Assembly (NCBI RefSeq): GCF_009727055.1
Contig: NC_052355.1
Coordinates: forward strand, 50,457,513-50,521,512
Origin: Benincasa hispida
Taxonomy: Eukaryota > Streptophyta > Magnoliopsida > Cucurbitales > Cucurbitaceae
DNA: 64,000 nucleotides
Direction of reading: 5' to 3'
A program made the translations under genes and the position numbers. Under the pieces are notes generated by a model. It saw nothing but the letters and a program-made list of their open reading frames with translations, did not search any database and was not told the DNA's origin. This document shows positions 26,253 through 27,088 of this stretch, piece after piece; the stretch's first letter is position 1; each line of letters starts with the position of its first letter.

Positions 26253-27088
26253 TGTTGGGGTTGATGCTCTAAACACTCGTTGGGTTCTATAGTTTGTAAA
26301 CACAGTTTTAAACAAATGCTTGTGATGTATAATATAAGATATTTTCTTCACTTTTGTCTATGGAAAATTGGATGTTTTATTTTCTTTACCACAAACCAAT
26401 AAACTAAGATCCCTGGTTGTCGTTTGTAACTTAAGCATATATGTGGTGATATATAGATGGATCATGCCTTAAGTGATAACCAAAATGGTCTGTAGTATAT
26501 GGATATAGGAGGGATACCTTATCTTGGTAACGCTACAGATGTGACCCGCTGTGTAGAATAGTTACAAGTGTTGTGACTTGCTACAGATGGTATGATCTTG
26601 ATCATTCATGTGGAGACATGCGAGCGAGGGCGTCCTATACAAAGAAGTTTGTATAAGACTAGACCACGAAATGTTATAGTCTCGTTATATAACGCCGTTC
26701 ACGACAGAGACTTCACTTCACTAGGATGACCATAGGTAACATAACCTTAATCCTAAATAAGTTGGGAGCTCTTGCCTTTAAGGGCGGTCCTCTGATTTGC
26801 ATGGGTGCGAGTGGCTAGATCGCCGACTCAAACCTACCACTTTGGGGATTCTTCTGATTTGGGAGCTGGGAACTTAGCTGCACAAGATGGAATTCACTCC
26901 TTCCCCGAAGTAGAGGTAAGTAGATAGATTGCTCCCTTAAGGGCTAATTTTGGGGTTTGAACGATGTGGCGCCACACACCTTCTCCTGTCTCTTATACAC
27001 ATCTAGATGTGTATAAGAGACAGGTCCATTAGAGGGATCAGTGATACTTAAAGAGTTAGATGTAACTACAGGGGCAAAACGGTAATTT
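26253..27088 (+). mobile_element. Truncated Copia LTR, family 1 (K), containing adapter sequence
   Basis: Starts TGTTGGGGTTGATGC and follows LTR G (reverse) and LTR A closely: TGGATCATGCCTTAAGTGAT at 26459, GATGGAATTCACTCC near 26888, ATTAGAGGGATCAGTGATA near 27029, ACTACAGGGGCAAAACGGTA near 27065. It stops matching at about 27088, roughly 1.2 kb short of the family length. About 50 bp expected between 26985 and 27024 are replaced by a 38-bp Tn5 mosaic-end palindrome. Confidence 0.85.
26986..27023. other. Tn5 mosaic-end (Nextera-type) adapter palindrome; assembly artefact
   Basis: CTGTCTCTTATACACATCT is followed directly by its reverse complement AGATGTGTATAAGAGACAG. This is the 19-bp Tn5 mosaic end in head-to-head form, as used in transposase-based libraries and as the circularisation junction of Nextera mate-pair libraries. 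It does not occur in LTRs A or G at the equivalent place. It is not plant DNA. Confidence 0.97.

Follow-up and report, generated by a model that had tools for sequence, protein, structure and literature searches.

A Tn5 mosaic-end junction adapter replacing some 42 bp of a copia-type LTR in the wax gourd genome assembly

A copia-type LTR in the assembled genome of wax gourd (Benincasa hispida) is interrupted by a palindrome of 38 bp, which is almost certainly a library adapter artefact and not a biological feature. The sequence of the palindrome is exactly that of an adapter, and other copies of the LTR contain ordinary LTR sequence at the same position, indicating that some 42 bp of the LTR were replaced by a library junction that had not been trimmed. 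The site was analysed within a stretch of 64,000 bases, which is referred to here as the window.

Structure of the palindrome and of the interrupted LTR

Positions 26986-27023 of the window read CTGTCTCTTATACACATCTAGATGTGTATAAGAGACAG. The palindrome is formed by the following elements.

26986..27004, minus strand: Tn5 mosaic end of 19 bp that forms the first adapter half, exact match
27005..27023, plus strand: Tn5 mosaic end of 19 bp that forms the second adapter half, exact match
26985..27024, no strand assigned: full perfect palindrome of 40 bp, made up of the 38-bp adapter and one outer pairing base on each side

The Tn5 mosaic end is a laboratory hybrid of two natural Tn5 ends. Both 19-base halves of the palindrome are identical to the mosaic end, with 0 mismatches, and there is no spacer between them: the mosaic end is followed at once by its reverse complement, which gives the 38 bp. 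Beyond these two, no mosaic end was found in the 64,000 bases of the window, even with up to three mismatches allowed. One hundred shuffles of the window yielded 0 matches, and the number expected is therefore 0. The head-to-head arrangement of two 19-bp Tn5 mosaic ends, proposed in an earlier note on this DNA, is thus confirmed. One additional outer pairing base is expected by chance at approximately one in four sites, and was seen at 50 of the 154 junctions from elsewhere that were among the matches listed, which is slightly above this rate. The outer base pair flanking the 38-bp adapter is probably a product of chance. The TruSeq stem, the SMRTbell adapter, and loxP are absent from the window according to exact-string searches.

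The homology to the LTR around the adapter, as detected by blastn within the window, spans positions 26252-27085. The flanks of the adapter and two LTR copies used for comparison are listed below.

26252..26985, plus strand: left flank, the initial ~730 bp of one copia-type LTR copy, matched by blastn to 13367-14192 (minus strand) with 83% identity over the whole matched stretch
27024..27085, plus strand: right flank, continuation of the same LTR for ~62 bp, after which the LTR homology ends
13367..14192, minus strand: closest LTR copy in the window, with 42 bp of ordinary LTR at the adapter position
3785..4464, plus strand: second LTR copy, with 41 bp of ordinary LTR at the adapter position

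When compared with the closest copy, the 120 bp to the left of the adapter are identical at 105 positions, and the right flank at 55 of 59. Both flanks align, in the same order and orientation, to all six of the other LTR copies tested, and enclose 41-47 bp of ordinary LTR sequence. The lengths of the enclosed segments are 42 bp in the copy at 13.4-14.2 kb, 41 bp at 3.8 kb, 47 bp at 10.4 kb, 42 bp at 19.8 kb, 45 bp at 50 kb, and 46 bp at 54 kb, and are partly extrapolated because the local alignment stops up to 15 bases short of the junction in some copies. Two of the six copies span the adapter site in a single blastn match; the remaining four have diverged further, and their flanks were placed one at a time. 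Two further fragments, near 56 and 61 kb, have no match over the adapter position in the displayed part of the alignment. Approximately 42 bp of the LTR are missing at the site and the 38-bp adapter stands in their place. Ordinary LTR sequence most likely occupies this position in the real genome. The statement in the earlier note that another LTR copy has ~50 bp of ordinary sequence at the corresponding position is essentially correct, with the slightly shorter segments given above.

The LTR that bears the adapter is assigned to the Ty1/copia type on the basis of the copia-type gag and integrase domains in the ORFs of its neighbourhood. Domains of this type were identified by a domain scan in three of the four retroelement ORFs scanned in the window.

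2105-2908: gag_pre-integrs and rve domains
43417-44103: Retrotran_gag_2 domain
51701-52696: SH3_retrovirus domain

The ORF at 53187-54086 has no family match in the domain scan. The homology to the LTR stops abruptly near position 27085; the LTR lacks its 3' part, and AT-rich sequence follows (27085-27500). A diverged direct repeat is located past the LTR end, where segments 27286-27363 and 27386-27463 are 84% identical. Two larger segments of the window, 54940-58497 and 60465-64000, each of about 3.6 kb, are 89% identical to each other in direct orientation.

Identity of the adapter and its possible route into the assembly

The 38 letters are identical to those printed for a biotin-labelled ring adapter used to circularise fragments of ~4 kb, as described in a passage of PMC7357533, which was the sole article found in a full-text literature search for the 38-letter string. 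The portion of the NextClip article (PMC3928519) that deals with adaptors describes a 19-bp adaptor on each end of a fragment; the two are joined by circularisation and comprise 38 bases as a pair. The printed adapter and the NextClip pair support the claim of the earlier note that the 38 bp equal the junction sequence of transposase mate-pair libraries.

The origin of the window is informed by two further features.

40096..40885, minus strand: two-exon gene of a small heat shock protein, chloroplast-type, with HSP20 domain
31700..31724, no strand assigned: run of 25 N, a scaffold gap and the sole run of N in the window

The best database match of the small heat shock protein gene is a protein of Benincasa hispida. 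In a tblastn comparison, this protein is identical to the gene in 72 of 72 residues of exon 1 and in 163 of 166 residues of the second piece. The three mismatches are in the first few residues of the second piece, where it overlaps with exon 1 and extends into the intron. For the five next proteins tried, the value in the second piece does not exceed 95%. The gene comparison makes wax gourd the very probable source of the window, and we infer that the window belongs to the assembly of wax gourd line B227.

According to the sections of PMC6856369 on sequencing and assembly, three paired-end libraries were combined with five mate-pair libraries (2 and 8 kb) for the B227 draft, with contigs produced by ALLPATHS-LG, mate-pair scaffolding, and PacBio gap filling using PBJelly. 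Since the article names the 'Illumina standard protocol', and its main text contains 0 instances of the word 'Nextera', the transposase chemistry of the B227 libraries is deduced from the sequence. The run of 25 N shows that the assembly is gapped. It may correspond to the default of a gap filler. One published paper gives 25 as the default value for the minimum gap in a PBJelly utility, and the run is therefore no proof that PBJelly was used.

The adapter could have reached the assembly in the following way. During library preparation, each fragment of 2-8 kb would have received a 19-bp mosaic end at both of its ends and would then have been circularised. Since both ends would be tagged before circularisation, every true mate-pair molecule would carry two mosaic ends head to head. 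Untrimmed reads of such junctions would have entered the assembly or the gap patching of the wax gourd draft. The junction adapter would be common to all mate-pair molecules and is palindromic, so that any sequence reaching the junction could continue into any sequence leaving it, and the one shared palindrome would act as a hub in the assembly graph. At a hard-to-assemble spot in the repeated LTR, the left contig end may have been joined to the right one through the adapter hub, and the adapter would thereby have taken the place of the missing ~42 bp. The hub step is possible and fits the data; we consider it somewhat more probable than its absence, the exact step in the wax gourd pipeline being a reconstruction of ours.

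The behaviour of such a hub was modelled in a toy k-mer graph, using five random genomes with an uncovered stretch of 42 bp and four word lengths for each genome, which resulted in 20 runs. A path through the junction bridged the uncovered stretch in 13 of the 20 runs, with no molecule holding both flanks. No path was present in the other seven runs, and the shortest hub paths lost 272-451 bp, as opposed to ~42 bp in the wax gourd LTR. Because of these larger losses and the runs that lacked a path, a length-aware gap filler must be assumed.

Occurrence of the same 38-mer in other public contigs

Among GTDB contigs, at least 120 stretches with the 38-mer were detected by pattern scans, which also identified it in seven viral-contig stretches and in five of 72,556 plasmid records. 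The listed GTDB stretches come from 19 assemblies by a hand count, and 39 of the 120 belong to one Enterococcus assembly. As a background, megablast searches found the 38-mer in 0 of 20,395 records of E. coli complete genomes and in 0 of 50,697 records of a phage collection. In one of the five annotated plasmid records, the match is positioned at the very end of the record. Some records with the 38-bp adapter are titled 'chromosome': two from Nitratireductor sp. isolate pb3 (L115 and L120), one from Allomuricauda sp. isolate pb2 (L025), and one from Tenericutes bacterium MO-XQ (L101), the last of which is also titled 'complete sequence'. At the two Nitratireductor sites, L115:4386 and L120:209, the adapter is flanked on either side by a repeat longer than 130 bp. 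A search of the literature on mosaic-end contamination of assemblies found no report of exactly such an artefact, which is not a claim that none exists.

Together with the identity of the adapter, the LTR copies, and the use of mate-pair libraries for the draft, the presence of the 38-mer in unrelated assemblies supports the central proposal of the earlier note, namely that the assembly merged a library junction into a repeat.

The flanks of the 38-mer were compared in a sample of 154 junctions from 127 loci, taken from the GTDB and viral matches listed. Seventy junctions were dropped: 35 had N within 150 bp, another 28 had an additional mosaic end within that distance, and seven had a flank shorter than 50 bases. 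The remaining 84 analysable junctions, 82 from genome contigs and two from viral contigs, are not independent because they were drawn from few projects. Sequence shared in direct orientation by both sides of the junction is present at 21 of the 84 analysable junctions among the listed matches, and in 17 of these 21 the shared flank begins within five bases of the junction on both sides. When left flanks were paired with the right flanks of other sites, shared sequence was found in 0 of 84 cases. This control does not exclude native tandem repeats, and a second one was therefore added, in which other places of the same loci were used; it gave two cases in 415. The shared flanks indicate that a good part of the joins elsewhere were made inside one locus, and the test says nothing about the 63 junctions that have no shared flank. 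Four of the seven viral-contig stretches, these four all being from one metagenome, have a contig end at a distance of 6-9 bases from the junction. Both the contigs that end close to the junction and the shared flanks agree with the behaviour that a junction hub would be expected to have.

Alternative readings, consequences, and comparison with known junctions

The suspicion raised in the earlier note that the two flanks may not be neighbours is not favoured by the analysis. The flanks are collinear, about 42 bp were lost between them, and junctions elsewhere were made inside one locus; the flanks are most likely true neighbours in the genome. A misjoin, in which the adapter of one or several circularised molecules links two loci, for example two copies of the LTR, would also be an artefact and is an unlikely though not a negligible explanation. 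A circularised molecule does join its two ends, which are kilobases apart, and the window contains several copies of the LTR that could take part. The homology of the right flank ends ~62 bp past the adapter, and the rest of the LTR was not found between positions 27,085 and 40,000 of the window, indicating either a truncated LTR copy or an incorrect join. Furthermore, a part of PMC9905507, an article that describes a long-read assembly of variety pf3, presents B227 as the single de novo assembly of wax gourd published earlier, and as incomplete and fragmented, and concludes that rearrangements seen against the B227 draft are mostly errors of that draft. However, both flanks continue one LTR with order and orientation kept and only ~42 bp missing, which would be a coincidence for random ends, and the 21 one-locus junctions among the 84 from the listed matches, with controls of 0 of 84 and 2 of 415, also speak against a misjoin.

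It is improbable that the palindrome originated from adapter read-through in a short-insert Nextera paired-end library, in which a mosaic end on each side of a gap would have been abutted by a gap filler. As such libraries are designed, read-through would put the same 19 bases on each side of the gap. However, the two adapter tails would have to be cut at exactly 19 bases and butted without overlap, whereas the mate-pair junction already provides the 38 bp as one unit, according to the adapter descriptions in PMC7357533 and PMC3928519, and the library section of PMC6856369 states that mate-pair libraries were indeed used for the wax gourd draft.

A real Tn5-like insertion or a natural palindrome in the plant genome is very improbable, and the only thing that speaks for it is that an assembly contains the sequence. 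Insertion of Tn5 in vivo leaves a 9-bp duplication of the target site. No 9-bp duplication flanks the palindrome, as the sequence on the left is CACCTTCTC and that on the right is GTCCATTAG, which speaks against a transposase insertion in the plant. The host sequence of a Tn5-type insertion should be complete apart from the insert, but the LTR is not merely interrupted: the 41-47 bp present in six of six other copies are missing. A natural or in vivo Tn5 insertion was rejected on these two grounds. In addition, the 38-mer is the library adapter printed or described in the passages of PMC7357533 and PMC3928519 cited above, and it recurs in unrelated bacterial, viral-contig, and plasmid records while being absent from the E. 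coli and phage records searched. That the palindrome is truly part of a wax gourd chromosome, through an insertion combined with a deletion of ~42 bp of the LTR by an unknown route, is likewise very improbable.

The adapter in the LTR is a quality warning for users of the assembly. Bases 26,986-27,023 should be masked, the LTR copy at 26252-27085 is unfit for estimates of LTR age or counts of solo LTRs, and the join at the adapter site is best regarded as unproven. Joins made by untrimmed mate-pair reads can be recognised cheaply and exactly by the 38-bp palindrome, which is present in many public contigs.

The Benincasa hispida site can be compared with three kinds of known adapter sequences. 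The junction of the Nextera long mate-pair protocol, as outlined in the adaptor description of the NextClip article (PMC3928519), is likewise composed of a 19-bp adaptor in forward orientation and a second one as its reverse complement, with a total of 38 bases. In that library, the adapter separates the two ends of a single fragment, which can be as long as 12 kb, whereas in wax gourd it is located between two parts of an LTR that are ~42 bp apart. The ring adapter printed in PMC7357533 shares all 38 letters with the wax gourd palindrome; it differs in its use, as the passage in question concerns human DNA that was sheared by ultrasound and had the adapter ligated on. The assemblies of Enterococcus sp. 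10A9_DIV0425, Ideonella sp. MAG2, and Scytonema tolypothrichoides VB-61278 contain the identical 38 bp inside contigs, as wax gourd does. These three assemblies have many 38-mer sites each, whereas wax gourd is known from the 64,000-base window only.
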